Source: Prorocentrum cordatum (taxonomy: Eukaryota > Sar > Dinophyceae > Prorocentrales > Prorocentraceae). Taken from it: a stretch of 64,000 nucleotides of DNA. The stretch spans positions 352,506-416,505 of the forward strand of contig CAUYUJ010011226.1 of assembly GCA_963575745.1 (NCBI GenBank), written 5' to 3'. A program made the translations under genes and the position numbers. The notes beneath the pieces were generated by a model that saw only the letters and a program-made list of their open reading frames with translations, made no database searches and was not told where the DNA came from. This document shows positions 7,166-63,664 of this stretch, one piece after another. The first letter of the stretch is position 1; every line of letters begins with the position of its first letter.

Positions 7166-7235
7166 CATACATGCATATATGCAGCTGATCCCAGTGCGAC
7201 CCTACCTAGGAGTTGGAACATTTAGGAAAGCAACA

Positions 7236-33545: not shown

Positions 33546-34107
33546 GTTAAGTGAGATACGCGTGCACTCAACGGAGGGAGAGGAGGAGAGGAGGGGACGA
33601 GAGAGGGACCAGGACAGGGCGAGGGTATTTTCATGGCAGCGTGGCGACGCGCATCTCCACCTGGGCGTGGGCCCTGACGGCTCACGCCCGACGCGAGCGC
33701 GTGGGCCCTGACGGACCGCGCGCTCGCGCTCTGGCACGCCTGCGGCCGCATGGCCAACGCGGGCGTCTGGGAGCACAGCGGGGTGGGTGGGCACCCGCGC
33801 GTCGGCCTGAGCCGAACGCTACGGACCCAAAATGGCTACCTGAGCCCACACCCCCTCCCACTTAACCTGCAGTCTACAACCAATCAGACTATACAAGTTA
33901 AGTGAGATACGCGTGCACTCAACGGAGGGAGAGGAGGAGAGGAGGGGACGAGAGAGGGACCAGGACAGGGCGAGGGTATTTTCATGGCAGCGTGGCGACG
34001 CGCATCTCCACCTGGGCGTGGGCCCTGACGGCTCACGCCCGACGCGAGCGCGTGGGCCCTGACGGACCGCGCGCTCGCGCTCTGGCACGCCTGCGGCCGC
34101 ATGGCCA
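33546..34107. repeat. 211-bp direct repeats (33546-33756 and 33897-34107) around a 140-bp segment
   Basis: Both copies begin gttaagtgagatacgcgtgc and end gcggccgcatggcca, spaced 351 bases apart, with no differences noticed by eye. The 140-bp segment between them (33757-33896) contains a spliced-leader-like sequence on the - strand. They lie just downstream (on the - strand) of the giant tyrosine-recombinase element. A repeat-unique-repeat arrangement resembles the B1-A2-B2 end of Ngaro/PAT-type elements, but the matching A1 at the other end was not found. Confidence 0.8.
33811..33848 (-). other. Degenerate spliced-leader-like sequence
   Basis: The - strand reads ggctcaggtagccattttgg, then gtccgtagcgttcggctcag. 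TAGCCATTTTGG is the core of the conserved dinoflagellate spliced leader; CCGTAGC and GGCTCAG words flank it, as in a damaged tandem leader relict. Its only - strand gene downstream within 1 kb is Copia 2. Confidence 0.4.
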
Positions 34108-34888
34108 CGTGAAGAGAGAACGCAGCCGCGCGCGCGGGGACGCCCAGCCCGAAGTGCGAGGGCGGACCCCGAGGCCGCGAGGACCTCGCGCGCGCGGCCA
34201 CTTGCCTGCAACCTTGAGGCCTTCCGCGCCCCGCGCACCCAGAGCGCGGGCGCGGCGCGTGCGCGAAGCGCGCAACAGAACGAGAAAAAGAGCGGCGCAT
34301 GATGCGCCGGGCGCAGAGCGCAAGTGTGGCCCCGCCCGCGCAGCGCGCAGGACGCGCTGCGCGGGCGGGCCCAGAAAGCGCGCGACGCGCGCGCCAAGTT
34401 CAAACAACCTCTCACTCACGGGCCTGGCCCGAGTAGCGGTCCGCCTCGATGGGCCACCGTCTTCAGCCCGCAGCCCGCGATGCCGCGGGCGCTGGCGTCG
34501 GGAGTGGGGTGCTCCACGCCTAGATGGATGGCGTGTTCCCCTGACGGTCGCGGCTCTCGTCGCCGCTGCGGTCTCCGCCGCGCTCACTGCGATCCCGGGG
34601 GCTGCCGCCATCGCCGCCCCTCGACGCGCGACCGCCCGCGCTGGGCCTGCCACGCTCGCTCCGGCCGCGGCTGCCCTGGTCGACCTTGGAGTGGCCGCCC
34701 TTGCCGCCCTTGTCGCCCTTGCCGCCGTTCTTGGTGCCCTTGGCGGCCTTGCCGGAGTGCTTGCCCTTGATCCTGCCGCCCTTGCCGCCCTTGTCGCCTG
34801 CGCCCTTGCCACGCCAGGCTGGGATCCCACCCCCGCCAGCGGCGGCCTCCGCAGCGGCCGCCGCAGCACGCCTCCGCTTTTTCTCCTG
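34108..34888. other. Spacer, 3' flank of the giant element
   Basis: Very GC-rich and open in many frames on both strands, with a gccgcccttgccgcccttgt tandem-like tract at about 34690-34800. No supported gene; possibly the 3' untranslated part of the element. Confidence 0.4.
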
Positions 34889-36025
34889 CTAGTACCAGCC
34901 GCCGCGGGGAGCGCGAAGCTGCCCAGCGTGCTTCCCGGTCTTACGCCGCGTGCGGCCGGGGGGGGTGTCGCCGCGCCGCGCCCACGCTGGGTCCCGCGCC
35001 AGGCTGCGGCTGGGCGACCTCTCGCGCTTGGGCCGGCCGCGGCTGGGCGACCTCTCGCGCTTGGGCCAGCTGAGGTCACCTGGCGGGCGGTCCCCCTCAG
35101 TCCCCGCGCCCGCGGCACCCGTGCTGGGGCGCTCTCCGTGGCCGGCACTGGGGCCCGGCGCCTCCCGCACGGTGTGGCCTCTCTGCCGGGCCTTCTCCAC
35201 CACCGTCTTGGGTTTGCCGAAGGCGACGCGGCAAGCCTCGCAGTAGCTCACGTCGCACCCCTTGCAGTGCCACCGCAGGGCTCCGCTGTTAGCTCCGCCC
35301 GCGGGGCGCATTTCGCAACCCCAACCGTCTCCCGGGTCAAAGGAGCTCCAGCGTATCTTGAGAGCGCACGTTGGGCAGGCAGGCGGCTGGATGGTCGGGC
35401 CATCCTCCCCGTCGCTGCCTGGGTCAGGGCCGCGAGGCCGGCTCGCCCACTCCGTGACCACCGTGCACGGGTCCGTCTTATAGAACCGATAGTTCGACCT
35501 CATGCACTCCCGCGCGCGCTTTGCATCAGCGCGGCGCTGGAACTCCACGAGCACACACGGCTCCCGCTTGTGGCGGTGGTCGTACAGGAAGGCGATGTGC
35601 TTGACGACCCCACAGGGCACGACCACCTGCCTGACCACCTCGGCGTCGACGTGGTGCGGCACCCGCTCGATGCGGATGATGGTCTCGCCCTCGTCGTGCT
35701 GGTCGCTGGGCTGCTGCTGGGCGCTCTGGCGCTGTTCCTCCTTGCGCCTACGGCGGCTCCTCGAGCGCGGCTGGCGCTGGGGTGGACCGTCCCCCGCGCC
35801 TGGCGTCGCCGTCTCCTCCACCTCAGTCTTCACCTCGAAGGACCGCGGCGGCGCTCCCCCGCTCTTGGGCTTCAGGACGGCCTCGCGCTTCACGACGTCG
35901 GCCCTCGGAGGTGCGCCCCCCGTCTTGGGCTTCAGGACGGCCTCCTCCTCCCGCCCCCTGCGCCCGCGATCGCGAGGCCCATCGCGCTCGCGATCGCGGC
36001 GCCTCGCGCGCGAGGGCGAGCGCAA
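34889..36025 (-). CDS. RRM + zinc-cluster + RS-repeat RNA-binding protein in element tail
   Basis: 378 codons whose first codon would be TTG; there is no ATG before residue 175. The frame is the same as that of the recombinase ORF, 21 bases after its TAG, and open between. An RS/DR-rich N-terminus holds two 13-residue tandem units (AVLKPK[T/S]GGAPPR at 29-41 and 49-61). The RRM spans 114-191 with RNP2 IIRIERVP and RNP1 PCVLVEFQ. A Cys cluster at 217-265 (CPTC, C, CKGC, CEAC) resembles a ZZ-type finger. The tail has two KRERSPSR repeats. SR-type RRM proteins act in splicing and RNA handling. Either it is a translational readthrough module of the element or a captured host gene. Confidence 0.65.
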   Translation of the reverse strand: MRSPSRARRRDRERDGPRDRGRRGREEEAVLKPKTGGAPPRADVVKREAVLKPKSGGAPPRSFEVKTEVEETATPGAGDGPPQRQPRSRSRRRRKEEQRQSAQQQPSDQHDEGETIIRIERVPHHVDAEVVRQVVVPCGVVKHIAFLYDHRHKREPCVLVEFQRRADAKRARECMRSNYRFYKTDPCTVVTEWASRPRGPDPGSDGEDGPTIQPPACPTCALKIRWSSFDPGDGWGCEMRPAGGANSGALRWHCKGCDVSYCEACRVAFGKPKTVVEKARQRGHTVREAPGPSAGHGERPSTGAAGAGTEGDRPPGDLSWPKRERSPSRGRPKRERSPSRSLARDPAWARRGDTPPGRTRRKTGKHAGQLRAPRGGWY

Positions 36026-36046
36026 GGGCGCAGGGCGCCTCTCACG

Positions 36047-37049
36047 CTAGCGGACCTCTTCGGCGAGGCGCTCCTGCCCCGGGGAGCGCGGGGGCCGTGG
36101 GCGCTCCGCTGGAGCGCCTTTGCTCTGGCGCCGCGCTGCAGCCTGGATGGCCGCTCGCGCCAGCGCCGCGGTCACGGCGTCCTCGCCCGGGTCGAGCACC
36201 GGGGCTGGGGCCGACCCCGCCTCGCCCCTGCTCGAGGCGTCCTCCACGTCGGTGAGCTCCACGACCGCCTCCGCGTCCACCGTGCGCATCATGTCGAGCA
36301 GCCCCTTGTTGTTCTTGCAGAGCTCGCGGAGCCCCGGCATGGGCTGCCCCTGGAACTGGGCCAAGGCGAGCGCCAGCTTGGCCGCCTGGCGCTGGACCTT
36401 GATATTCGGCCCCGCGCCCACTCCCCACGCGCCCCGCTTGCCGTCGACGAGCACCAGCTGGCCGTGGTCCTCGCTCGCCCCCGCGGCCAGGCAAGCCGCC
36501 GCGATGCACGGGGCTGCTTCGTGGTCGTGGTTGACCACCTCGACGAGGTCCTCGCTGTCCAGCTCGTCCACCACCGTGTACAGGATGTTGTGGGCGGCAC
36601 TCCGGAGCTCGTCCGACAGCGCGGCCCCCGAGACGACGACGCCGAGGGGGTTCACCGCCATGATGCTGTAGTCATGGCAGCGCGCCTTGCTCTGGTCCGG
36701 GGCCACCAGGCCCACCAGGAATCCCATGACGCACGCTGCCGAAGCGCGGGGCGGAGGCGCGGCTGGCGCGCGGGGCTGGGGTGCGCGCGCTGCTCGCGCG
36801 CCTCGCTCTGGAGTGGGGGGCGGCTGCGGATGAGAGGACCAAGAGGAGGCGGGCGTGCCTGGGGCGATCGGGGGCAGCGGCGAATAGGGACTCGAGGGCG
36901 AGAGGCCCACCGGGATACCCCCGCAACGCGAAGCCCCCGCCCCGAACCGAACACCTGTAGGACCCGCCTGCTGCTTCTCAACGCGCCCGCTAGCTCCTCG
37001 CCCTGGCTCGTATCTCACCGGCCCCTCCTCCCCTTCCCCCTCCATTTTT
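36047..37049 (-). CDS. Domain of unknown function after the recombinase
   Basis: Continuation of the recombinase frame. A Pro/Ala/Arg-rich linker is followed by a compact part with MGFLVGLVAPDQSKARCHDY, NPLGVVVSGAALSDELRSAA, LYTVVDELDSEDLVEVVNHD and NIKVQRQAAKLALALAQFQG. This alternating strand/helix composition looks like a folded domain, but I do not recognise it. The frame ends at TAG 36047-36049 after ERLAEEVR, and the next ORF continues in the same frame. Confidence 0.5.
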
Positions 37050-37921
37050 GACCCTGCTCGCGCCGAAGGGCGCGCCCAGGGGGGACGCCCGGGCGCCCAG
37101 GCCGGGCGCTCCGAGGGCCTCAGGTCGCTCCCAAACGGGGGCGGGTCGCTCCCGGCCAACCGGTCGGGGCGGGCGCTGGCCGTGACGCCGTCATCACCGC
37201 GGGCGTCCGGGGCCAGTAAGGCGTGACCTTCCGCCATGCCTCGGGCGAATGGAGCCTGACGCCGATGGTCCTCCCAGAGGTATCCATGGAAGGCGTCCGT
37301 GGACCACCTCCCGAACCTCTTGACCGCTTCCAGGTCGCGACAGGCGTGGTACAACGCCGTCGCGCCCCCGATGCGCAGGGAGTGGGATCCCATCTGGCCT
37401 GCGTCCACGCCACAGGCGGCAGCCGCGAGTTGGAGGAGCCCCTGCACCTCCTCCCGCATAATCGGGTGGCCATCGGGCCGGCGGAACAGGGGGAGCCCCG
37501 CCTCGGTTCCTCGTCCAAGCCGGTCCGGCAGCTCCCTCTGGAGGTTGGCCAGTGCGTCCACGACACACAACTCCACCCCCGAACGGTAATGGTTGCGCAC
37601 GCAACCCGCGTTAAACTGGTCCGTCTTGGACGACGTGATCGTCAACACTACCTCGTCGCAGTCGCTGAGCCATGCGCTGGGTGTACCCCCGCGCAGCCCC
37701 TGCACGTCCTGCCCACGCACCACCCGTCCCATGCTCCAGGAGCGGTCCTCCTGGACCAAATACTCCGACGCGCGGAGCATGAAGAAGTACCCCGTCATGA
37801 GCGCCGCCCATAAGATGGTCGCCTCTCGGCGCGTGGCCGTCCCGTGGGCGAACAAGTACTCGCGGAGCCAGCGCAACATCCGGGGCGTGGCCGGCAGCTT
37901 CCGCTTCGCCTTTCCGTCCCA
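37050..37921 (-). CDS. Element tyrosine recombinase, catalytic domain
   Basis: In the frame entered after 37922 (WDGKAKRKLPATPRMLRWL). Catalytic residues counted from Met at 37879: Arg36 in FFMLRASEYL, Lys85 in TSSKTDQ, His166 and Arg169 in GSHSLRIGG, Trp192 in RFGRWSTDAF, Tyr200 in HGYLWED. The full R-K-H-R-W-Y set has the spacing of phage-integrase-type recombinases. It would join the circular element DNA to the target through a Tyr-DNA intermediate, as in DIRS elements. The N-terminal arm-binding domain is encoded in the preceding frame, so function requires frameshifting, repair of an indel, or an assembly error. Confidence 0.78.
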
Positions 37922-37922
37922 G

Positions 37923-40900
37923 CGGCGGGAGTCCCTCGATCGTGGTCCAGGGCCGGCGCCGATCGGAGGTCACATCCCCAAACCCTGCCAGGGTATGGGC
38001 ATACCGAATGGCGAACAGGCGCTGGCGGATGGTCGTGGCCCGCCTCTTCATCACCTTGTACAGGTACACGACATACCGGATGAGGTCATCCTCATCCGTA
38101 AGGCGGGCGTCCCGAGTCTCCCCCTGGAGGTACGGGCTCCGGCCTCGGAGCCTCCGCCAGAGTACCCAGTTACGCCACCCGGCGCTGTAGTTGGCCCGCG
38201 TCCCTTCGGCGAGCTTGGCCAGCATCGCCTCGGTGGCGGTCGCATCCAGCTCGCGAGGGTCGGTGAGTTCACCCTGAACCCCTTTCGGGGCGCCCCCGCC
38301 GGCGTACCGCCAGGCCGCGGGCTTCACCAACGCGGGGGCAAGGGCACTGCGGGTACGCCGGCGCGTCTTGCGCGGGGGGCGCGCCTCGCCTCCCGCGCCG
38401 TCCGTGGCGCTCGGCCTGGGCGTCCCCGCGCCTTCCTGGGCAGCGAAGGTCACCGCCCCGACCCGCTCCCCGCCTGCCCCGTCCTCCCCGGCCGCGGTGG
38501 ACCGAGCGGTAGCAGGGGGGTCGAGCTGGTCCGCCAGCCGAGCAGTGTCGTCCGTCGTCTTCCCCGCCTCCAGCGCAGCCTCGAATGGCCCGCTTGGGCG
38601 GTCGGGGGCCTGAAGCCAGGCCTTTAGCCACAGCTTAACCATCTCGTCGTTAGCGAGTCGGTCGTAGTCGGGACCGACGCCAGCGCGCGCCCCGGGTGCC
38701 TCGCCTGCGCTTGCTGCCTCTACGGCCTGCCTCAGCAGACGCTCCGCCCACTGGAGCACCCAGCGGGCCGTGCGGCGCCGGAGCGCACGGGCGGCCTGCC
38801 GCATGCGCTCGGCGATCGGCATACCTCCAAGGCCCAGGCTATCCCACAGCTCCGCCGCGCCCCCTTGTGCGCACCAGATTTCTTTCGGGTGCAGGGCTCG
38901 CGCGGTCCAGCCGCCCTCGGACCCCTCCAGGATCAGGGTGTTCGCATAGCCCTTCAACGGGTCGGGCTTCGCCCGTGCCGTATGGCAGGGCCCGCGCGGA
39001 TCATGAATCACCGCGCGCTGGGCCCGCCCGCCTCCCGCGGGTTGCCACGTGCCGCGCGGCCAGGGCATCGTGCGATCCCCCGTCGTCGAGATCCGGGGGT
39101 CCACGAGCAATGTGCCGTTGTTGAGGTCCAGGCGAACCTCATCCAGCGGTGGCCGCCCTGCCTCTCTCCAGAGCTGGCAGAGGCCGCGTGGCTCCACGCA
39201 GGGCTGCCCCAGGGGGGGTACGAGGCTCGGCGCCCGAACCCGTTCTCCGCAACCCCAAACCTGGACCGCCCGCGCGCGTGCCGCGACGTCGCCGAAGTGC
39301 GTGCACAGAAGGCGCGTCTCCGGGGAGAGCGCTACATAGCCGAGGCGCCGCAAGCGCGCACCCAGCCGCGCTGCGGCGTAGTTGACGGGGGCGTCGAGCA
39401 ACACGGCCAGCGGCCGGATGGTGATCAGTAGACGCTCCAGGCCCGCCGCCTCGCGTCCACCGGGGTCCTCCGATAGTGACGCGCACAGCCGACGGATCCG
39501 CGGTGCCCCAGTGGGGTCCTTGGGGTGGTCGCCGTCGTCCGGGTCCCATCGGTCACCGACATCCCACGGCGCCAGCAGCGCCGACCCGCCGAGGCTCTCC
39601 CATGCCTCCCCGAAGGGGGGCCACGCGGTTCCCACCTCCAGCAGCCGCGCCCCCTCGACCTGCAGGGGGGCGTAGCGTGGTAGAGCCTCCCGGGCTCCCT
39701 TGACTTGGAGTGCGGCCGCGCGCCAGGGCCCATCGTCTCCTGGCATCCGCAGCTCGCGCTGGGCGGCCTCCTCCACCAGCTCGCCCCACGGTGCTGCCGG
39801 CGACAACTCGGTCCATCCGGCCTCCGCCATCCGCTGGCGCACCTCCTCCACCGTGGCTCGAGTCACGAAGTCGGCCAGCTCGTTGTGGTAAGTCCGTAAG
39901 TAAAGTCCGTCCAGGACCCGGAACTTGTACCGTAGCTCCAGCATGGCCAGGACTCGAAGCAGGTGGCGCGCCACCGCGTTCCGTGCCCGGCGGCGTCGCA
40001 GCCAACGGCTGACATTGCTGTTGTCAGTGACGTACGGCAATAGAAGCTGGAACCAGTCCGGGCCCTTCTCGGCCGCCAGGGCTATCAGGCACAGGAGTTC
40101 GACCACCGCGATGATCTCCCCCTCCCCCTGCCAGGTGACCCCGGGGGCGGAGCGGAGCGTCTCCAGGTAGGGAGCCGCCTCCGCCACGATGTACTCGCGC
40201 GAGGACCAGTCCAGCGCGCCGATCCGATCTAGGGTGGCATCGCCTCCCAGCCATCGCAGCTTGCCGAGCGCCCCCGGAAGCGCGAGGGCCTCGCGAAGGC
40301 CTAGCAGGCCCTCGAAGGAGGTCTCGAAGTTACCCTCGACAGGCATCTCAAAGCAGACGCGCAGCCAGTCCAGGGTCTGGTGCCAGTCGTCCCACGCAGC
40401 CTCTACCTGCTCGGGGTCGCCCGGCGGGTGGACGTAGGCCTGGCCTGGGTCGCCCGACAGCATCCGGTGGACCGCTGGGAGCTCCAGGCTCAGGGCTGGA
40501 GCTGCGCAGGCGCAGAACTGGCCGAGCCCACTAAGCTCCCTCGCGGTTCGCAGCCGTACCATGCGGCAGCCGAAGCTCAGCTCCGGCTCCGCCAGGAGGA
40601 AACGCATCTTCATGGCCTTGGGCTCCGGGAGTCCCACTCGCTCGCGCTCGAAGTCCATGCTGAGCCCCCAGATAATCTGAGTGGTGGAGGGCCCCCCCTC
40701 GGCGTCCCTCTTGCTGACGTTCACCGCTTCGGACCCGAATACCTCACGTATGGAAGCATCCAGTGCGTCGCAGGCCATCCATGGCCGGACCCCGATGTCG
40801 GGCTCCACCACCACAGGATCATCCATAAGCCACTCCGAGTGGAAGTGGGTGGTGTCGTGCCAGTGCGGCCCCCCAGGCCGATAGCTCTCGTGGAGCTCCC

Positions 40901-43900
40901 TCGCCGCCAGAGCGAGCATCATGTAATTGCCTGGGGCTCCTGTCCACCCAAACACCATGGCTAGGTAAACGACTCTGACGTCCCCCTCGATGCCAGCGTG
41001 GGCCCCCGGTAGTGAAGTGCCGAAGTCCCCGACGTCCGCCGGGGCGATGTCCAGCCACTTGAAGGCCCGCGAGACGTCCCGCTTGGCGCAGAGAAGGCGC
41101 GCTCCGGGATGACGCGCGCGGTGCCATACCGCCGTCCTCGCCACTTGCCGATGGCGTGGCTGGACGGCCGGCGGGTTGTCGCGCTTGTGTGTGGCGGCGT
41201 TGGCCGAGAGCATCGCGTGGATCATACGCCCTTCGGACGATAGGGTTCTGTCCGGTAGCTGCTTTGGGGCCCTCCCCAGGGGGGCTTCCACCAGCTCCGT
41301 CAAAAATCCCTCTGCCGCCTGGGAAGCCACCAAGACGATCCCCCAGGTCACATCCGCCCATACCTTCTGGTAGGCCTCGTCGATGTGGGCTCGCACGCTG
41401 GGGTACGGCCGGGCTCGCTCGCGCCTCCGTGGCGCGCCCCGCCGCGCGGATGCTCCCCCTTCCGCCAGCTCCCGGACGTACTCGAAGTGCTCTCGGCTTA
41501 AACACCGCCGCACCTTGTCCCCCAGGACACCACGAAGAGGGTTGCCCAGGCGCTCGTGGCGCGCGCGCCTAAGCAGCGCGGCCGCCTCCTTCAGGGACCC
41601 CGTCCGTTGGAGGAGCCGATCCCCCAGACCCACCAGGGTCCGCATGGCTTCGGGGTCATGCTCAGGGTGCTCCGTGGAGAAGGTCAGGTAGACCGTGGCC
41701 AGCTCCGCCGGGCTGCGCCCGTCGAGGTCCTCCGCGATATCTCTGGCCGGGTCCTCGCAAGGGGGTCGAGGCTTGCCCGCGCTCACCTCCCCCTGTGTCT
41801 CGCCCAACGGGGGCTTAGGAAGCCCCGCCAATGCTCGGTGCATGGCTGGGCTGAGCCTACCGCATTTTGAGCCGTCCCCTGAAGCCTGTAGGCGCTCGAT
41901 TCCAGTGAAATCGACGCCCTGCAGGCGCCCGGGCGCCTCCGCCCGGGCGAAATTGGGGGGCGCCCCCGGGCCATCCTCCCATATAGGCGCCAACTGCCGA
42001 CGCAGTTGGCTCACCGACCAGCGGTGATAGGCCCCCTTCAACACCTTTGTCCACGCAATGCAAAGCCTGGGGGCCCAAACCTGCGCCTCCTTGGTGCGCT
42101 TAATGCCCGTGCCAGGCACGTGGTCTTTCAGCTCGACGTGGTGGTGGTCACGGGGGCATCGTCGCGCCAACAATAGAGCGTGCAGGTACAGCCGGGGGCT
42201 GACGAGCCACCAGCTGCCCTTGCGATAGCGGCTCTCAGGCGCATCGGACGGGGCCTTACCCCAGGCGCACATGTGGATCGGGACGATCATGGCCCCGGTC
42301 GCTCGACGCAGCTCGTGCATTGGGGCCTGGTCCCAGATCTTGGGGTAGCGGCCCGAAGGGCAGGAGGACTCGATGAGAAACTCCTTGCCGGCGTCGTGGA
42401 GGATGCGGCAGGTGTCGCACGTGAGCTGGGTGTGGCTGTTACCAACGAGCTCAAACTCCTTGGAGCCGTCCCCCTCGGGGTGCTCCCACGTGCGGGTCCC
42501 CTGCGGGGTCCCGCCAGGCTGGGTCATGAGCCCGAGGTCGGTGTACGAGCCACACGGGGTACCCCAGCACCACACGTTGGCCACATCGGGGCCCATGGGG
42601 GTCCGTGCGGCCTCCTGTAGGCGCGCGCGAACAGCCGGGTCGAGGGTGTCGCGATCCGGCCGCGGGCCGGACTCTCGGAGAGGGTCGTCGTAGTATTCGA
42701 TCGGCTCCAGCACCCGGATGCCCTCGGCTCGAAGCGCGGCCGACCAGTTTCCCGACCCGGCGTACACCTCCTGGGCGATCAGACCGTACGCGAACGCGGG
42801 GTCGTGACGGATTGGCATCGCGTTCGCTTCCAGGAGGCGTGCCTGGACGTCAGCTGGATGTTCTCCGAACGAGGCTGGCGCGCGCCCCACTGCGCGGCCC
42901 GCCCGACCTTCCGCTGCCTTGCAGTGGGTGCAGGGCGCGCTCTTGCCTGGGACGGTGGGTTCGACGTCAGGACCTTCGTCGAGCATCTCGCGCCAGCCGA
43001 CACTCACGATCTCGCGGGACAGGCGTCCTGCGTGCCCCCAGCGCTGGCCTAGGGCCGCCGCCTCCGCGCGGGAGCGTGGGCGCAAGACGCGCATGTGGCC
43101 ACGCCAGATCAGGGGCGGAATAACTTGATCCTCCGCGCAGACACCCGTCCCCATTAGGTGGTCTACGCATAGGCGCCCACTGCCGTTGACACGGTGCACC
43201 TGGAGCGTGACGGCGTCGAGGTCGGTGACGGGGCATGCTGCTAGGCAGCGATAGTCCTTGTCGTGGTGTGGATGCACCGCGTCATGGACGTAGGAACGGA
43301 CATCGGCCTCCATGGCCGTGATCCACGGCGGTGAGTCGCCCAGGGCACGTAGTGCCTCGTGGGCCTCCTCCCATAGTGCATGGCGATACGTCGCGGCCAA
43401 CTGCTGCACCGCATCCGAGCTGGGCTCGCCCGCGCCCTCGCCCGCGCGTAGCAGGAGCACCCCAGCCGCTACGTGCAGTAACAGGCACTGCCGCTCCTCG
43501 GTGTCGCCCACCTCCAGGCCCATCGCCTGGCCCATCTCCTCTGTAGGGCTGAGGCGGTCCCGGTAGTCGAGGAAGTCCCACTGGATGCGGGTGTCCCCGT
43601 CCCAGAAGGTATAGGACCCGCGGCCTATCAGCCCGTCGGCGTCCCAGGCAACCGGGCCGACCTCGGCCCCGCCCTCGGTGACGTATCCTGCGGCGCAGCT
43701 AAGCGCCTCATGCAGGTCGGCTGCCTCGCTGCTGAGTCCCCGATGGCCTCGGTCCACGGCTTCCTCGAGGGCCCGCTCCACGGTGAGTCGCTCCCCGCGC
43801 AGGCGCGCCCCCAAGACGCGCCCGCGCACGTGGCTCTGCAGGTACTCGCTGGCCCCTTTCAGAGGCGCGAAGATGCCCTCGGATTCAAGCTCCTGCATGA

Positions 43901-45404
43901 GCTTGAGGCGAAGCTCCGGCCCATCACCCGCGGGCTGGGCGTCCCAAGTGGCCGCCGCACGCGGGCAGTCGCGGTCCTCGAGCCATCCGAAGTCGGGACC
44001 CTTCACCGCTTCCCGGAGGTCGGATTCCATCGCGGTAAGCTGGAGCGTGGCGTAGTCGTCCGGGGCCTGCCCAGGGCCCGAGTCGCCCGCCGCTCGCGAG
44101 CCGCTGCCACGGCCACGGCCCTTTTCCTTCTGGGTGTCAGGGGCAGCAGGGGGCGACGTGTCCTCGCCGACCTTCTCGGCCTCGGCTGCCTTGGCTTGCG
44201 AGCGCAGCTGCGCAATCATCCCATCCACCTGTTTGGGGTCGATCCGGGGCGTCCTAAGGAGCCCCCCGCGCCTCGTGAGCTGCATGACTACCGTGTAGTC
44301 CAATCCGCGTGTTGACTTGATGGGGTCATGGGAGTTAGGGCAATCGCAAGCCTTCCGCGAGCAGCCCACGTGCGTGGTGGCCCCCCAGCAGATAGGGACA
44401 TTGTCCTTATTGCGGGGCGCATGCGCCACGGAGCGCGTACGCTCTTGGCGTGTTAACTCCTTGCCCGCTGGGTGCGCCCTCTTGGGGGTCGTCCCCGCTG
44501 GGGCCCCGGTGCCCGCCTTGGGTCCCGCCTTCGGCTGGGGCCCAGCCCCCGCCTTGGGCCTGTCATCACCCTGCGCCGTGGGCCGGGGCTCGCCCATTTC
44601 CTCGCCCCCTTCCGCCTTTGGCGGTCGCTTCGTGAGGTGGGCGTTCAGCTGCCCATTGAGGAGGCGCGTGAGCGCGGCCTTATGCCGGGGCACGACTACC
44701 TGCTGGTAGTAGGCATTCGGATCCCCGAGGTCGAACGTTCGGGGCAAGTCGTAGCCGTTCTCCGGCATGAGCAAGATGTACTTGATGTCCTCCCTCCTTG
44801 GGTTCTCGGTGTCGAGCTCCCGGCAGAGCCGACGCCTGAGCTCCCGTAGCTCCTCGACCCAGGTGCTCTGGAGCTCTTCCCGCAGATCCTTGACCCAATG
44901 GTCCGGGAACTCCGAGGGATCCCTCTCGAAGGCCGCCTCCAAGAATCCTAGCGACCGCCGACGCTCTGCCCCGTGTGCGACCCCTACGATGGACTCGAAC
45001 ATCTGGATCTCGCACCGGGCCCTCTTGAACCAGGTCGCCATGTGGGTGGCGGGCCGCTGGTGGGGCTCCAGCTTGTCGTCCACAGGGAGCCTGTAGCCGT
45101 CGAAGTCCTCGTCACGCGCGGGGATGCAGTCGTCCACTGCCAGGTCGTGTGGACCCGTCCCGAAGGCGAGCGCCGCGTAGCCGTGCGCCACGCGGTTGGT
45201 AACCAGGCAGGGAAACCCGATCGTCTTGAGCGTGCGCTTGGAGTGCGCACACATGCGCTTGAGGGAGTCGAACAGATCCTTCCCCGTGATCCCCTCGCAG
45301 GCCTCAACCACGAAGGTGTTGCATCCCCTGGCTATGTAGAGGTCCAGTTCCTCGTCTCGACCGATCCCCGCCCGGGTGCCCCGGGCCTTCTTTCGCCCTC
45401 GGTG
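37923..45404 (-). CDS. Element pol: CCCH finger, MTase-like I, RT, RNase H, MTase-like II, recombinase N-terminus
   Basis: Residue numbers count from the GTG at 45311, but the frame is open further upstream. A CCCH finger (C-x8-C-x6-C-x3-H) lies at 308-328. Methyltransferase-like I spans 835-1095: EVYAGSGNWSAALRAEG, WCWGTPCGSY (Cys920), FLIESSCPSGRYPKIWD, IHMCAWG. RT spans about 1300-1570: CAKRDVSRAF (Asp1412), MVFGWTGAPGN, WLMDDPVVV (Asp1497/1498). RNase H spans 1730-1820: Glu1738, Asp1763 in VTDNSN, Asp1814 in ELADFVTR. Methyltransferase-like II spans 1888-2195: VGTAWPPFGEAWESLGG, RRLCASLS (Cys1943), RPLAVLLDAPVN, FGDVAARARAVQVWG, RALHPKEIWCAQG. The recombinase arm-binding domain starts at 2352. 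The product would reverse-transcribe the element RNA. True pol coding leaves this frame at 37922 by a one-base shift, after IEGLPP. Confidence 0.75.
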
Positions 45405-46798
45405 GCCCGCGCCTGCCGCTCGGCGGCGAGGACGTGGCGTTCGGTGAGGCGGTTCTGGCGATCCAGGCGCTCGATGATCTGGGCTTCGGCCTCGGCTGTA
45501 ATCCCGCCCAGGGCCCCAGCCGCTCCGGCGTCGTCCGGACCACCGGCTCGTTCCCCACCCAGGCCACCCCCGTGGGGCGTCTGGCCAGTGAGGTGCCCAA
45601 GGACCGAAGGTCCGTCGAGGAGCGGATTGGTCCCGCGAGCGGGGCCCCCGCGTCCATCGCGTGCCAGTAGGTCCCGATCGCCCGGCAAGCCACGACGTGG
45701 GCCCGTGAGGTGGACGGGGGGCATGGCCCCGAAGAGCTCGCGCCGGGGTGCCTGCCTCGGGCTGGGACCCCGTCCCCGCGCCGAGCGGCTCCGCGAGCCC
45801 TCGCGTGAGAGGCTGCCCTGCAGGGGAACCTTGTCGCTGGCCGCAGCACGCTCTCGCGCGCGCGCTTCCAGCTGCGCATCCTCCAAATCCGCGAGGGCGC
45901 GCTCCAGATCGGGCCCCAGGGGGCCCGCCGCTGCCACCTGTGCGACTCTCCGCCGCAGCTGCCGGTCCGCCTGATCAAGCGGAATCCCGAGCAGGTCCGC
46001 GGTCATACCTAGTGCGCTGAGGGCCGCCGCTTGGCCCCCTCGTCCCTTGAGATCCTCGGCTCGTAAGGTATCCATAAATATCTCGAGGGGATCGGGCTCC
46101 TCAGCATCCTCGCTCACGCCGGCGGCGGCCGCCGCCAAGCGTGGCGGAGCCGCCACGGGGGCTGGGCGGGGTAAGCCCTCCATCCCGGGCGCAGGTTGCG
46201 CCCCCTGCGCGACGCCCCGCCGGTGGTGGCCGAGCGTGCGTACCGGGTCGTGCTGCAGCTGCTGGCGTTCCGTGCTCGTCAGGTAGCGCCGCCTCCAGCC
46301 GCTCGCGCTTTCCACGCCCACACCGCCCCACTGCTCCTGGCGTAGCATCGCCGGCAGATCCTGCGGGATGTGGTGGGCGATGACACGCAGCCCCACTTCC
46401 CGCGCGCCTTGGGGGACCTCGTACAGCAGCCGATTGATCCAATCTATCGGGTAGCGCCCGTCCTCCAGCGGGGGGGGGCGCCGCGCGACCTCGCTGGCCG
46501 GGACCTCCACCCTGACGCCCTCGAGGCTGGTCCCGATGATAAGTCGGGCGTCCCCGCCAGTGCCCCGTGCGTCGAGCCCCTCGCATTCTCCCAGTAGAAT
46601 GTACCAAGGACTCGGCGCGCCATGCGCCTCCTCGGCTCCCCGAGGGTCGCCCGGGAGTACCGGGCAGACCTTCGCGAGAATGGGCTCCTGAAGCCACCCG
46701 TGATGGGCGATCCGATCGCCCGGGGTTCCGCGGTCGGCGGACCGTGAGCGCTCGCTGGCCCTTGCTTCCGCGGAGCGCGAACGACGCGGCTGCGGCAC
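45332..46798 (-). CDS. Element gag-like protein
   Basis: 488 codons in the frame after the N-terminal protein; the apparent first codon is GTG, so it is probably an internal part of a longer product. It begins with an Arg/Ser-rich stretch (PQPRRSRSAEARASERSRSA) and a compact segment (WYILLGECEGLDARGTGGD). An Ala/Arg/Glu-rich helical region (RALADLEDAQLEARARERAA) comes before the Arg/Pro-rich tail. No zinc knuckle. Position before pol and composition suggest a structural gag role. The stop at 45332 overlaps the pol frame, whose coding character already starts at about 45.40 kb (RDEELDLYIARGCNTFVVEA). Confidence 0.5.
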   Translation of the reverse strand: MPQPRRSRSAEARASERSRSADRGTPGDRIAHHGWLQEPILAKVCPVLPGDPRGAEEAHGAPSPWYILLGECEGLDARGTGGDARLIIGTSLEGVRVEVPASEVARRPPPLEDGRYPIDWINRLLYEVPQGAREVGLRVIAHHIPQDLPAMLRQEQWGGVGVESASGWRRRYLTSTERQQLQHDPVRTLGHHRRGVAQGAQPAPGMEGLPRPAPVAAPPRLAAAAAGVSEDAEEPDPLEIFMDTLRAEDLKGRGGQAAALSALGMTADLLGIPLDQADRQLRRRVAQVAAAGPLGPDLERALADLEDAQLEARARERAAASDKVPLQGSLSREGSRSRSARGRGPSPRQAPRRELFGAMPPVHLTGPRRGLPGDRDLLARDGRGGPARGTNPLLDGPSVLGHLTGQTPHGGGLGGERAGGPDDAGAAGALGGITAEAEAQIIERLDRQNRLTERHVLAAERQARATEGERRPGAPGRGSVETRNWTST

Positions 46799-46799
46799 C

Positions 46800-48185
46800 A
46801 GAGGCTAGAGCCTGCACCCCCGAGGGCTCAACATCGACGGATGGGGCCACTGCGGGCGGTGGTGGTGCGGCGGGCGGGGGGTAGACCGGCCCGGGCGCTA
46901 CGCCAACCCCATCGGCGACATGCGCGGTCCAATCGCGCGCCTTGGCGGGGCTTGGAGCCCGCGCTCGCATGCGACGGCGCAGACCCCCGAGGATCCCTGG
47001 TTGGACCGTCGCTTCGACGCGCACGGTGTGGCCCTCATCCCGTCGGAGATGTTCCCCGCACATCGGGGCCCCCCCACAGCTACCCTTCGCCATGCGGAGG
47101 CAAGTGGGAAGGCTGCATTTGCGGCCGATCAGGGTAGACCGATACTTCTGCGCATGGTGGGCGCAGAGGTGCAACTGTGCATTGAGGCAACGCCCCGGCC
47201 GTGGGACATCCGACACCTCTGCATCCTCCTGAAGCAGAACAGTCGCCTCCTGCATCCCTCGGTCGCCGCGCCCCTCCGGCTGGAGGGGGCGTGCGCCGCC
47301 TGCGAGCTGCGCCCCAACTTGTGCGGCTCGGCAGGGGCGCTCCTCCGCCTCCACCTCGCTCTCCGAATCGATGTCCAGGCGGCGGTAGCCCGTGGCGTCG
47401 GTGATGTAGCGGGGCTCCGGCCGGGCCCGGCACAGCCATCCAAGTACCGACCAGGGCAAGCAGAGCAGCCACTTGATGACCCCGAATACCTTCCGGAGTC
47501 CCACGCCGACTGCCCGGCATGCTGTGGCCTTACCGTGCTCAGCCAAGTCCACGATCTGTGTGTGGTCAATGGCCGCGTACTGGTCGACATGCATGGGGTG
47601 CGCCACTGGGCATGAGGCGCACTCGACGGCACGGCATAGATGCACGTTACCTGTCTCCTCGAGGTTCAGCCGCCACTTACGACTGGTGCACCCCAGAACC
47701 TGCCCGATCTTGATGTTGAGTCCGTGGCGGTCCAGTCGATACCGGTCCGCGAAGTTGCAGCTGATGCGGGCCACCTGCCCGTGCTTGCGCAGGAGCACGT
47801 GGTTGTACGCCCGATTGGTTCCCCGGCCGCGGACCTCCTTTGTGTAGAACTCCGTTTCCACCGCGCCGCCCAAGCCCGGCCCGCGCCAGCGCACCAGCAG
47901 GGGAGTCGGAGGGGGTGGGGGGAGATGGGCGCCGGGCCCATCGCCTCCGCGTCGCTGGCAGCACCGGGTATTCTGGTACCACGTCCAGCGGAGTCCCCCA
48001 GCTGCCCACAGCATACCGAGAGAGACCAACGCATGCACTTTGGACGACCAGTGTCGTCCACAAACAACATACGTACCAACAAAAGGCATATGTACCATGT
48101 TTTTCGTTTTCGTTGTGCGAAGTTGTTCGCGCTCGCATATTCGTGTTTTTGGTTGTTTAATGTAGAGCACGGTGCAATCGCACAT
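46800..48185 (-). CDS. Element N-terminal Cys-rich protein
   Basis: Open from an ATG at 48185. No known domain. Features: HPMHVDQYAAIDHTQIVDLA; a hydrophobic segment (VFGVIKWLLCLPWSVLGWLC) that could cross a membrane; a Cys cluster (HLCRAVECASCPVAH); and a second cluster (CSLPTCLRMAKGSCGGAPMC plus His) that could bind zinc. The C-terminal part is Pro/Ala-rich. Beyond about 46.8 kb the frame is a shadow of the gag-like frame, so a frameshift or frameshifting site lies near 46.80 kb. A leader-like word (caattttggttgag) lies about 50 bases upstream of the ATG. Confidence 0.5.
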
Positions 48186-48190
48186 GATCA

Positions 48191-48600
48191 ATCACGCGTT
48201 TTTCAGCGTCGCGAGCTTGAGAATGCAGCAGCTCAACCAAAATTGTATCATCATTCCTCCTCTGCCTTCCTCTCCCACTGTTCCTCTCTCGTTATCATAG
48301 ATTCCTCGTTTCCTGTTTTCCCTCAATGTTGCTCTTCGATCTCCCGCGCCCCTCCCGCGTTCGTCGACTCCGTGTTTTCTGCATGGCCCCCCTCCTCCAA
48401 TAATCCCCCTGACTTGCCCCTTCCTCTTATCCTCCTTATCCTCCTCCCCCTTGTCATCCTCGACATCCTCCCTCCTCGTGCCTTTCTGTCCCCCATTCGT
48501 CCTCCCCGGTGCGGCATCGACCGAGGCCGCGCGGGAAGGGCCGGGAAGATTGCGGGGGGGGCCCAGGAGGGCACCGCCGCCGCACAGAGAAGGCACGGAG
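48191..48600. other. Spacer upstream of the giant element
   Basis: C/T-rich on the + strand. It should include the 5' untranslated part of the element. I found no copy of the 33.5-34.1 kb repeats here. Confidence 0.4.
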
Positions 48601-53603: not shown

Positions 53604-53984
53604 AATTACCCCAGCGCGACCCCACCTAGAAGTTGGAGCCCCTAGGAAAGCAGCATTAGTTGCTATGCTATGTTCTGCTATGCTATGCAATGCACTATGC
53701 TATGCTATGCCATGCTTTGCTGCGCTCTGCTATGCTGTGCTGTGCTGTGCTGCGCTATGCTATGCTCTGCTATGCTATGCTGCGCTATGCTATGGCTGTG
53801 CTGCGCTATGCTATGCTACGCTCCGCTATGCTATGCTGTGCTCTGCTATGCTAGCGCTCAGCGAAGCTAAGATAAAGGTAAGCTAAGCAAAGATAACCGG
53901 GGGGGCCGCCTGGGGCGTTTTACATTGCCCGGCCCTTTAAGCATAGAGAGTAAGAACCTTTCTAGGCAGAGCTAGGTAGGGAAT
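53604..53984 (+). mobile_element. Dispersed inverted-repeat/pentamer element, copy 3 (shortest)
   Basis: Left end aattaccccagcgcgacccc, acctagaagttggagccc and ctaggaaagcagcattag. A TATGC array of about 190 bp, a short aagctaag stretch and a shortened right block (gggggggccgcctggggcg, tgcccggcccttt) follow. The right end is ctaggcagagctaggtaggg. It has the same order as copies 1 and 4 with the array contracted, so the ends, not the array, define the family. Confidence 0.75.
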
Positions 53985-55062: not shown

Positions 55063-55211
55063 GTCTCGGCTCGAGAGTGCCCAGCACTCAGACCGCAGCC
55101 GCGACGCGAAGCGCCCCGCCTCGGAGTCAGTCTCCCAGGCCTCGCGAGACCGGAGGGGTCCCCCCAGGACCCTACTGATTCGCGTCACCTCTCCTCAGTG
55201 CGACCGCCGCC

Positions 55212-58200
55212 ATGGCCCCCCTGTCTGCGCCAGGCCGCCACCGCACCTTCACGTCTCACCATGCTGTACTACCTGAGCTACCTGGCCATGTTACTGTACA
55301 CAGGCACCAGGACCTTGTCTTCCGCGTGCCCGTCCTGCACGGGCGCGACCTCCCAGTGCCACCTGGACACGCCCCACACGTGCCGCGTGCGGATCTTCAC
55401 GAAGATCTACGTATACTTGGGCATGACGTGTTTCACCTGCGCGCCGAGCTGCGCGCCTACCGCGCCGACCTCCGCGCTCACTTACCAGGCACCGACGCCA
55501 ACACCGACGACTCCGTCCAGCACCTGCACACCTCGGTACGGCCAGGTATCCAGGGGGGGGTCGGGCTCCCGACTGCTGAGGGTGACGGTGCTGAGTGCGG
55601 TCGGGCTGTTCCCACGCCTGCCGTCGTCGCGCCGTGCGTGACAAGCAGTCGGCCCCCAACCTCCCCCCGAGAGCGCTCCCGCGGCAACGTAGGCACCGCT
55701 CTCATCTTCATCGGCATTATCTTGCTGAACTTCGGGTACGGCCTTGGCTCCACCTTCGGCATCGTCCTCGGCGCCGTCGGTCCGCAGACAGCATCGACGC
55801 CAGCTCTGACGACGGCACTGCAGTCAGCATCGACGCCAGCGAGTGGTACGGATTCGGCACCACCCTCGCCTCCTCCCTCACCCCGCCCCGCAGGAGGAGG
55901 AGGAGACGATGACGACCACGACGACCTTGACGACTCATTACCGGCGCCGGCGCCGAGGTCAGCACCGACGCTCCTACCGAAGGCAGTCGCCGATCTATCG
56001 ATGATGCATGCATATACGACCACAGTCTCGCTGACCCCGACGGCAGCATTGACGGCGGCGAGGACGGCTCCGACGGCAGCACCGCTAGCATCACAGACTC
56101 CGACGGACGTCAGTACCACAATCAGCCACTCCTGCGCTACCTGTATTGCCACTCGCTCGGCGGCGCCTTCAGGCCCGCCGAAGTCTGGTGACCTACAGAC
56201 CTCTCCTCGGCATCATCGTCTCTCAGAGTTGCAGCCAGCTTCGACGCCAGCTCCGACGTCCGTATCGAGGCCAGCACCGACGCCAGCCCCTACGACAACA
56301 CCGCCAGCGACGGATTCGGCACCACCCTCGCCTCCTCCCTCACCCCGCCCCGCAGGAGGAGGAGGAGACGATGACGACCACGACGACCTTGACGACTCAT
56401 TACCGGCGCCGGCGCCGAGGTCAGCACCGACGCTCCTACCGAAGGCAGTCGCCGATCTATCGATGATGCATGCATATACGACCACAGTCTCGCTGACCCC
56501 GACGGCAGCATTGACGGCGGCGAGGACGGCTCCGACGGCAGCACCGCTAGCATCACAGACTCCGACGGACGTCAGTACCACAATCAGCCACTCCTGCGCT
56601 ACCTGTATTGCCACTCGCTCGGCGGCGCCTTCAGGCCCGCCGAAGTCTGGTGACCTACAGACCTCTCCTCGGCATCATCGTCTCTCAGAGTTGCAGCCAG
56701 CTTCGACGCCAGCTCCGACGTCCGTATCGAGGCCAGCACCGACGCCAGCCCCTACGACAACACCGCCAGCGTCAACACCCATGCCTGCCCCTACGCCGTT
56801 ACCTACGCCAGAGTTGCAGGCCGCATCGACGCCAGCTCCGGCGTCTCCAGCGAAACCAGCACCGATGACAGCTCCTATGCCAGCACCGCCAGCGGCACCA
56901 ACCACTATTATTTATCCCACCCCGCCGACGTCCCTGGGTGCCCCTAGGCTAGCACCGCCGACCACCGCATCCATTGAGGCGCCCACGTCCACATCAACGA
57001 CAGCACCGACGGCAGCATCGAGGCCAGCCTCGATGAGTCTTCAGCCAGTCACTGCTCTGACGCCTCGTCCATGGCCGCGGGCGGGAGTGCAGCCTTCAGG
57101 CGCACTCTCCGCTAGCGGGGCCGCCATGTCATGTCATGCCACGTCCGCCTCGTCGCCCGTATCGTCTGTGTCACTATCTGCGCCGACGACCACATCGACG
57201 CCACCACGGACGGCAGCTGGGACGTCCGCATCGGCAGCGACAGTTTTCGGGCGACCGCCTTCGACGTCAGCAGTGGCAGACTCGCCGGCGGCGGCACCAA
57301 CGTTGCCACCCACGGTGGCACCTACGGCAGTCCCCCAAACGGCCTTCACAGCGGTATCCACGATAGCACTCATGACTACATCCACGGTGGCATACACGGC
57401 CATGGCTCCCGTGCCCACGTCCGCACCGACGCCAGCATTGACGACAGGATCGGCCTCAGTATCGTCGGCACCGACAGCGGCATTGACGACGAGATCGACA
57501 CCATCAGGCACACCCACGGCTATTGGGGCCGCCGTACCACGCCGCATCATGCCCGCCACGCTGTCACCTACGGCCCCACCGACCCAAACAGCGACGTCAG
57601 CACCGACGACCGCATCGACGCCAGCCTCGGCGAGCCCTCAACCATTCACTGTCCTGACGCCTCGCTTAGGGCCGCTGGCGCGGGTGCCGTCTTCAGGCGC
57701 ACCCTACGCTAGTGGGACCGCCATGTCATGTCAGGACACGCCTGCCTCGTCGATTTTTTCGTCTGCGGCACTGTCTGCATCGACGACAACATCGACGACT
57801 ACGCCGGTACCCACGCCAGTGTTGCAGCCAGCATCTACGCCAACTCCGCCGTCTGCATCGGCGCTCGCATCCATGGCAGCATCGCCCATAGCTTTGACAC
57901 CAGCACTGCCAGCGGCAGCTCCCACGCCCACGCCTACGCGGGCACCAACGTTGACACCAGCACCAACACCGGCACCGAGCGCAGCCGAGACGTCATCGCC
58001 GACGATTACCCTCATGCCAACCCTGCCAGATTCAGCACGCCCTGAGTCGTCCGCGGCGGCGCCAAAGGTGGCACCCACGTCGGCCTACACGGCAGCGTTC
58101 GTGGAGTGTGTGTGTTTGGAGGTCATCGAGTGGTACAACGTGGTGTCATTGTCCACGTGGGCCACTTTGTGCGCCACGTACGGCATGTACTACTTCTCCA

Positions 58201-62842: not shown

Positions 62843-63664
62843 AATTACCCCAGTGCGATCCGACCTAGAAGTTGGAGCCCCTAGGAAAGCACATTAGTTG
62901 CTATGCTAGGCTATGCCATGTTATGCTGCGCTATGCTATGATATGCTATGATATACTGCGCTATGATATGCTATGGTATGCTATGCTAATCTATGTGCTG
63001 TGCTATGTTAAGCTATAGTATGCTATGCTATGCTAAGCTGCGATATGCTATGATATGAGATGCCATGTTTTGAGAGGCTATGATATGCCATGCTGCGCTA
63101 TATGCTATGATATGCGATGCTATGCTTGATATGCGATGCTAAGCTAAGCTAAGTTAAGCTCAGCTAACCCTTTAGGCAGAGCCCATGCTAATGATTTGCG
63201 CTGCTTTGCGTTGTTTGTGCGTTTCTCTGCTGTCGCTGATGTATGTTATGCTATGTTATGGTATGCTATTATATGCGGTGATATGCTGCGCTGTGCTATG
63301 CTGTGCTGTGCTGCGATATGCTATGCTAGGCTATGCTGTGCAATGCTGCGCTATGCTATGCTATGCTGGACTATGGTATAACATGTTATGCTGCGCTATG
63401 CTATGCTACGTTATGCTATGATATGCTGTGATCTGCTATGCTAACGCTCAGCGAAGCTAAGATGAAGGTAAGCTAAGCTAAGATAAACCTGAGCGAAGGT
63501 GACGCTAAGCTAAACTAACATGAAATAAGCTAAGCTCAGATGAGATAAGCAACGCTAAGTAAGGGGACGTAGCTGGGGGGACCGCGGGGCGGATGCCGGG
63601 GGGGCCGCCAGGGGCGAGCCCCGCTGCCCGGCCAAGAACCCTTCTAGGCAGAGCCTAGCTAGGG
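62843..63664 (+). mobile_element. Dispersed inverted-repeat/pentamer element, copy 4
   Basis: Left end aattaccccagtgcgatccg, acctagaagttggagccc and ctaggaaagcacattag. TATGC arrays (62900-63130 and 63240-63440) are separated by an internal partial right end (aaccctttaggcagagccca at about 63165-63185). Then come a second aagctaag array and the right block (ggggggaccgcggggcggatg, ctgcccggcc), ending ctaggcagagcctagctagg. The internal end indicates nesting or tandem duplication, as in copy 2. Confidence 0.75.

Follow-up and report, generated by a model that had tools for sequence, protein, structure and literature searches.

A probable DIRS-order retrotransposon of about 15.5 kb with methylase-like domains in Prorocentrum cordatum

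Features of the locus

The stretch of DNA analysed here, referred to as the window, comprises 64,000 nucleotides of the dinoflagellate Prorocentrum cordatum (GenBank assembly GCA_963575745.1, contig CAUYUJ010011226.1; C11226:352506-416505). Its block 33546-48015 is very probably a single damaged copy of a DIRS-order retrotransposon, an element with a tyrosine recombinase (YR), which measures about 15.5 kb when complete. On the minus strand, a gag-position region with a CCCH finger is followed by a methylase-like domain (MT1), reverse transcriptase (RT), RNase H, a second methylase-like domain (MT2) and YR, then by a second open reading frame (ORF2) and the terminal repeats. The features, all on the minus strand, are as follows (MTase, methyltransferase):

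33546..48015, minus: whole element copy, 5'-truncated (shared 3' end; homology to full-length copies stops at 48015)
46104..48015, minus: N-terminal part of the polyprotein, ORF 46101-48191 (relatives' profile, E 1.4e-81; tblastn begins at 47963/48008)
45332..46804, minus: probable next part of the polyprotein, in a shifted frame (weak; relatives' profile, E 0.12, best among the window frames)
44610..45395, minus: gag-position domain (29-46% identity to 8 relatives, at the same place)
44328..44390, minus: CCCH zinc-finger motif (from sequence; in the rows of 7 of 8 relatives, the eighth, P0007, being unaligned there)
41973..42971, minus: MT1, predicted C5-cytosine-MTase-fold domain with Pro-Cys at 42563-42543 (predicted fold and motif IV)
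40485..41687, minus: reverse transcriptase (RDVSRAF from 41090, FGWTGAPG, WLMDD at 40832)
39795..40337, minus: RNase H (motif reading GGD, E, TDN, HN..AD; no Pfam match)
38568..39725, minus: MT2, probable C5-MTase-like domain without the motif IV Cys (poor model, Foldseek, position)
37929..38249, minus: N-terminal (core-binding) domain of YR
37229..37927, minus: catalytic domain of YR, in a shifted frame (R, K, HSLR as HxxR, W, Y; PF00589, E 0.0019 for the window piece)
34523..36727, minus: ORF2, with RRM, zinc-binding part and RS/KG-rich tail; two in-frame stops in the window copy (tblastn full length, 94% to P0026, 729 aa)
33897..34107, minus: terminal repeat B1, 211 nt (identical to B2)
33757..33896, minus: A2, consisting of 105 nt common to A1 of full-length copies (33896-33792) and a 35-nt spacer
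33546..33756, minus: terminal repeat B2, 3' end ...CACTTAAC (identical to B1; shared end)

A first-pass annotation had proposed a single giant element with RT, RNase H, YR and added modules at 34889..48185. Every part that it listed (CCCH finger, methylase-like domains, RT, RNase H, YR residues and RRM) was found on the minus strand, and the single element is borne out by copies with common end points (see below); its limits are here corrected to 33546..48015. The window copy has suffered 5' truncation (993 bp are absent, the match to two full-length copies ending at 48015), a frameshift in YR and two in-frame stops in ORF2. The G+C content is 68-74% across 34-48 kb of the window vs 53-65% at 22-34 kb and 48-64 kb, and a similarly high value (69-70%) is seen in the initial 4 kb of the window.

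The main frame (37611-45974, 2,787 aa) runs from the gag-position domain through the CCCH finger, MT1, RT, RNase H and MT2 to the N-terminal domain of YR; a sequence search with it gave no match in Pfam and nothing useful in PDB. The calls of RT, RNase H and YR are predictions resting on invariant catalytic columns plus weak Pfam matches. In the putative RT, the Asp of RDVSRAF and the first Asp of LMDD are invariant across 8 rows, and Pfam RVT_1 matched weakly in 2 of the 8 relatives' rows (best E 0.0094, below the curated cut-off); the RT profile retrieved nothing useful from PDB. The columns D490, E537, D562 and D613 assigned to RNase H are invariant in 8 rows. The YR catalytic residues R, K, HxxR, W and Y are invariant in 7 relatives and present in the window, and Phage_integrase (PF00589) was detected in 6 of the 7 relatives' YR rows (best E 4.3e-5). 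Coding in one block, as first proposed, holds from RT to the N-terminal domain of YR, which share a single frame, but not for the catalytic half of YR, whose frame (36047-37969) differs from that of 37611-45974. Of 6 further copies, 3 have YR in one open frame, 2 have it shifted and 1 has it incomplete; since the frame is also single in the relatives P0001, P0004 and P0005, the frameshift is regarded as a lesion of the window copy.

Copies, relatives and insertion sites

Copies were sought in the 4.13-Gb assembly (21,875 contigs) with the 139-bp middle repeat as query, and 40 scored copies (L010-L049, the window's included; 97.8-100% identity) of 663 first-look candidates were inspected. Their ends are laid out as split direct repeats, A1 ... 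B1-A2-B2, with A1 comprising 105 nt of the A repeat. The same 3' end base (...TTAAC) stands against unrelated DNA in 38 of the 40 copies, the window's included, the other two stopping earlier within B. The same 5' start base, with TTGTATAG (TTGTGTAG in one copy), was found in 15 of 23 copies inspected; in the remaining 8 the 5' end is absent from the stretch fetched. Exact measurement of two copies gave lengths of 15,466 and 15,462 bp, and the 5' starts of the other 13 full-length copies fall in 801-bp stretches placed at a distance of about 15.5 kb. Common end points among copies in the same genome, the check suggested with the first-pass annotation, are thus present at both ends.

Within a copy, B1 equals B2 exactly in 20 of 39 cases and to at least 99% in 32, while between copies the similarity to the window's B is 90-98%; such a pattern would be expected if the repeats were renewed in each round. 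The possibility that B-A-B is a chance tandem duplication of one copy was ruled out, since all 40 copies have B-A-B and A1 was found. At the 5' end, A2 recurs in direct rather than inverted orientation, and neither end of the element is an inverted copy of the other. At the B1/A2 joint (window 33757-33907, L010-L049), nested inverted repeats are visible by eye, with CACTTAAC ... GTTAAGTG outside and AGTCT ... AGACT inside, a candidate layout for recombinase binding.

A search with the RT-RNase H part retrieved 14 related proteins with 27-57% identity, one of them named Symbiodinium microadriaticum; P0042 is a related protein labelled Prorocentrum cordatum. RT plus at least part of YR is contained within one protein in 11 of the 14 proteins of this first search. 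Distances in RT and in the catalytic part of YR are correlated over 9 proteins (r 0.96), as are those in RT and MT1 over 7 proteins (r 0.98), with 0 of 5,000 shuffles as high in either case. Because of the common end points and the co-varying distances, RT and YR are considered to belong to one element, and the 14 relatives with the RT-RNase H part together with dozens of copies with fixed ends make the arrangement more than chance. In the RT trees P0014 and P0047 form long branches, support in the YR tree is weak, and P0010, P0030 and P0044 were left out, their RT pieces overlapping too little.

In the largest relative, P0005 (4,033 aa), counterparts of the upstream ORF, the gag-position domain, MT1, RT, RNase H, MT2 and a complete YR lie in one frame. 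Profiles of MT1, RT-RNase H, MT2 and YR, complete or partial, matched in that order in P0002, P0003, P0005, P0010 and P0013; P0012 has MT1, RT and YR by profile and MT2 by hhalign (E 5e-9 for that pair), and no MT1 match was found in P0007 or P0014. Two relatives carry other domains: residues 1256-1423 of P0011, a polyprotein with RT and YR, contain an RNA 2'-phosphotransferase (Tpt1/KptA) domain (PF01885, E 1.2e-31), and P0007 has a DnaJ domain after its YR pieces (E 3.6e-7). Judged from sequence, the slots between the core enzymes seem repeatedly to accept foreign enzymes. A search with the RT profile added 11 unnamed relatives and no named DIRS element, and the reference sequences of DIRS1, Ngaro, VIPER and PAT were not among the matches of the protein searches. 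In viral contigs, nothing was found for RT and one phage-like recombinase without RT was found: L009:9911-10963, on an IMG/VR contig that is phage-like by eye, encodes a tyrosine recombinase 26% like the YR of the element, with no RT seen nearby.

The borders of 15 full-length insertions were compared, and in no case did they share a direct repeat of at least 5 nt (longest match, 4), so that no target duplication was detected. In the 3' flanks (37 distinct), G is preferred at +6 (23/37, p 6e-5) and T at +7 (18/37, p 2e-4), +8 (21/37, p 2.9e-6) and +9 (19/37, p 6e-5), and nothing falls below 0.01 at positions 11-30. In the 15 5' flanks, A is preferred at -1 (10/15, p 6.9e-5) and G at -6 (11/15, p 0.0012), positions -2 to -5 being weaker (p 0.013-0.024). 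These p-values are per position and uncorrected for the choice of the best base, and the counts omit L023 and L040, which end inside B, and L022, whose flank is the same as that of L021. (L021 and L022, 27.6 kb apart on C6202, have an identical 3' flank; one of them probably lies within a later duplication of the host region.) The insertion sites have the preference AA | N5 | GTT, whose two halves form an inverted pair with a short spacer between them, in line with what a tyrosine recombinase site should look like. RT/RNase H and YR in the same element, split repeats and the lack of target-site duplication all agree with membership of the DIRS order.

Polyprotein, methylase-like domains and ORF2

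Upstream of the main frame, two ORFs (46101-48191 and 45332-46804) had initially been described as structural-type. Both appear to be fragments of one polyprotein, as in P0005: the first matches the relatives' polyprotein profile at E 1.4e-81, whereas the match of the second is weak (E 0.12). These profile matches led us to reject two separate structural ORFs, the second part of that rejection resting on the E of 0.12. The hydrophobic N-terminal part of about 160 aa in the relatives is missing from the window copy, where the N-terminal profile had no match below E 0.4. L050 and L052, which cover the first 1 kb or so of the element, both have an open polyprotein N-terminus. A transmembrane-like hydrophobic stretch was seen there by eye in L050, L052, P0002, P0005, P0007 and P0008, which is odd for a protein in the gag position.

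MT1 is predicted to adopt the C5-cytosine-MTase fold with a catalytic-type Pro-Cys (motif IV), which all 7 rows and three further copies retain. MT2 is probably a C5-MTase-like domain lacking the motif IV Cys, with weaker evidence than for MT1: its model is poor (pLDDT 50) and the best Foldseek E value is 2.3e-3, C5 cytosine MTases making up 46 of the 50 rows listed, and no Pro-Cys was present at the place of motif IV in the 6 aligned rows. The distant relative P0014 carries a canonical C5 MTase, with Pro-Cys, in the slot of MT2 (PF00145, E 0.014, below the cut-off); hhalign aligned MT2 with this methylase over 59 columns only (E 0.013) and gave a negative result for MT1 against MT2. PF00145 was found at E<=5 in none of 7 MT1 rows and none of 6 MT2 rows, in a search whose HMMER filters drop most matches above about 0.1. 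Neither MT1 nor MT2 had a useful match in Pfam and PDB sequence searches.

The zinc-binding and RS-rich RRM ORF noted initially at 34889-36046 has the content described, but it is not a separate ORF, being the middle of the 729-aa ORF2 (36727-34523), which is broken by two stops. RRM_1 (Pfam PF00076) is above the cut-off in the window piece (E 1.2e-4) and has E 9e-5 in P0026; the search of ORF2 against PDB gave no match. ORF2 is open in two of three further copies fetched (L063 and L064; 731 and 735 aa). A neighbouring host gene as the source of the RRM ORF was rejected, since the tail of ORF2 and the 3' untranslated region are common to ten copies (L010-L019, the window's included) and the frame is open in two of the three fetched.

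We found that RT, MT1, MT2 and ORF2 are under selection. In comparisons of the window copy with three others, the ratio of nonsynonymous to synonymous substitution (dN/dS) was 0.050-0.056 for MT1, 0.052-0.082 for RT, 0.048-0.051 for RNase H and 0.168-0.233 for MT2; MT1 is thus constrained as strongly as RT (dN/dS about 0.05, against the window copy). For ORF2 against the window copy it was 0.237-0.254 overall and 0.08-0.12 in the RRM part; the figures for the ORF2 N-terminus in L062 are unreliable, a second, poor tblastn piece having entered the count. Among the three nearer copies, MT1 shows zero amino-acid changes. L060 has an uninterrupted frame of 1,549 aa spanning MT1, RT, RNase H and MT2, while the frame is broken in or near MT2 in L059 and L061.

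Several observations weigh against the reading of the block as one element with two C5-MTase-like domains under selection. Motif VI of C5 MTases is Glu-Asn-Val. i) MT1 lacks this ENV form, having ES[ST] in 7 of 7 rows, in which the Glu is retained. ii) The fold of MT2 rests on a poor model and on position, and MT2 is interrupted in two of the three copies fetched (L059 and L061). iii) The CpG observed/expected ratio is 0.98 in the element vs 0.96 and 0.89 in the flanks, i.e. there is no depletion and no footprint of self-methylation. iv) The N-terminal 160 aa of ORF2 have a dN/dS of 0.64-0.65 (window vs L063 and L064; 9 changes). v) Comparisons between the three nearer copies give higher and noisy dN/dS values on few changes (RT 0.19-0.34, RNase H 0.37-0.73, MT2 0.11-0.31), and the ratio for YR is 0.44-0.53 with 7-13 changes per pair, which says little. 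vi) The Pfam matches of RT and YR in the relatives' rows are below the curated cut-offs, where cut-offs are shown, and the RNase H call rests on motifs.

As to function, it is rather unlikely that the methylase-like domains are dead passengers kept as a protein scaffold only. The lack of the motif IV Pro-Cys from MT2 in 6 of 6 rows, the absence of CpG depletion and the lack of an MT1 match in P0007 and P0014 speak for such passengers, whereas the Pro-Cys of MT1, present in all rows and further copies, and a constraint on MT1 equal to that on RT speak against them. A more elaborate scheme, which we put forward tentatively and consider unlikely, is a two-part cytosine methylase in one polyprotein, in which catalysis would fall to MT1 and the reading of DNA to a catalytically dead MT2, like DNMT3A with DNMT3L. 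Such an enzyme could set the methylation of the element's circular DNA or of the insertion site before insertion by a YR with a recognisable target motif.

Elsewhere in the window, a 49-bp unit occurs in three copies (7184-7232, 53604-53652 and 62843-62891), two of which have 78% and 94% similarity to the reference copy. They lie close to TATGC-rich minisatellites and may be ends of another repeat family. On the plus strand, 55179-59639 is an open frame of 1,486 aa with many imperfect repeats (units of 57, 114 and 300 nt) and strong GC skew.

Relation to known elements and proposed mechanism

The Ngaro, PAT and VIPER elements are far smaller than the 15.5-kb element. The arrangement A1...B1-A2-B2 is given for VIPER (PMC6681497), and Ngaro and VIPER are described as lacking an MT domain (PMC3266345). 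The present element resembles the Ngaro/PAT/VIPER group in having A1 at the 5' end, B1-A2-B2 at the 3' end, and RT, RNase H and YR (PMC6681497, PMC3266345), and differs from Ngaro and VIPER, as there described, in the presence of MT1. DIRS1-like elements have inverted terminal repeats and internal complementary regions, all those described to 2011 being <6 kb (PMC3266345), and carry a Dam-like adenine MTase (PMC5890265). They share with the present element GAG, the RT-RNase H-MT order, YR and the lack of target duplication (PMC3266345); in contrast, the repeats here are direct and split, the size is 15.5 kb and the methylase fold is C5 instead of Dam-like.

The first-pass background, which allowed such elements at most one (adenine-type) methylase, is out of date, a dinoflagellate DIRS with a cytosine DNMT having been published in 2018. 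This SymbioDIRS-Dnmt3 (de Mendoza 2018, PMC5890265) is a DIRS-like element with a Dnmt3-type cytosine MTase in Pol with RT, an A-coding-B-A-B layout and two domain orders. Its DNMTs were identified by means of PF00145 and group with Dnmt3, an ORF of its own is described for YR, the MTase is under purifying selection, and no significant CpG difference is reported for the DIRS type. The element described here is of the same kind, as an enlarged variant: it has in common with SymbioDIRS-Dnmt3 the dinoflagellate host, a C5-fold MTase in Pol beside RT (by fold), A-coding-B-A-B, purifying selection on the MTase and the lack of a significant CpG difference. However, two C5-MTase-like domains here flank RT/RNase H, neither of them seen by PF00145, YR is in frame with Pol in the relatives, an ORF2 with RRM is present, and the size (15.5 kb) is probably different. 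P0014 may be a link to SymbioDIRS-Dnmt3.

Simple identity with SymbioDIRS-Dnmt3, in another genus, is unlikely. It would accord with the same host group, the DIRS-type A-coding-B-A-B layout, a cytosine DNMT in Pol with RT and the two domain orders (PMC5890265), but the DNMTs of that paper are PF00145-detectable and Dnmt3-clustering, which contrasts with the 0/7 MT1 and 0/6 MT2 rows at E<=5 under the filters mentioned above, and its separate YR ORF contrasts with the in-frame YR of the relatives. Hardly credible is a chance or nested composite of 15 kb in which the RT and YR parts are two adjoining elements, the outcome named beforehand as refuting a single element: the window's YR catalytic part is indeed out of frame with RT, but the 11 of 14 proteins with RT and at least part of YR and the correlation of 0.96 speak against this idea, and the 15 copies with both end points common already refute it. 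A literature search, with most subscription papers and all preprints outside its scope, brought up neither a comparable element from Prorocentrum nor a giant DIRS element; in the passages found in two P. cordatum papers (PMC10449503, PMC10666404) the term DIRS has 0 occurrences.

For the single DIRS-order element favoured here, a life cycle can be proposed on the pattern of other YR elements with split repeats. The transcript would be copied into cDNA by RT and RNase H, and the B-A-B block would restore complete ends, giving a circle with the B/A joint CACTTAAC.TTGTATAG. Insertion would proceed via this circle joined at B/A, YR recombining the joint into loose sites of the form GGC-R-AA | N5-GTT. 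MT1 may be a methylase of cytosines, its most likely target being the DNA intermediate of the element itself or the insertion site, with MT2 as a catalytically silent C5-MTase-like partner that would bind DNA or support MT1, and the ORF2 product would bind element RNA.

The most useful new facts are the exact ends, the copy evidence, the target motif and the constraint on MT1. They indicate that an element of the DIRS order can grow to 15.5 kb, with relatives whose polyprotein frame extends over thousands of codons, and yet spread in many copies. The exact ends, a candidate circle junction and a statistical target motif open a little-tested step, the integration of YR retrotransposons, to assay. 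A polyprotein in which one C5-MTase-like domain has the catalytic Cys and a second lacks it would allow a concrete test of the reasons for which retroelements take up the enzymes by which they are usually silenced.

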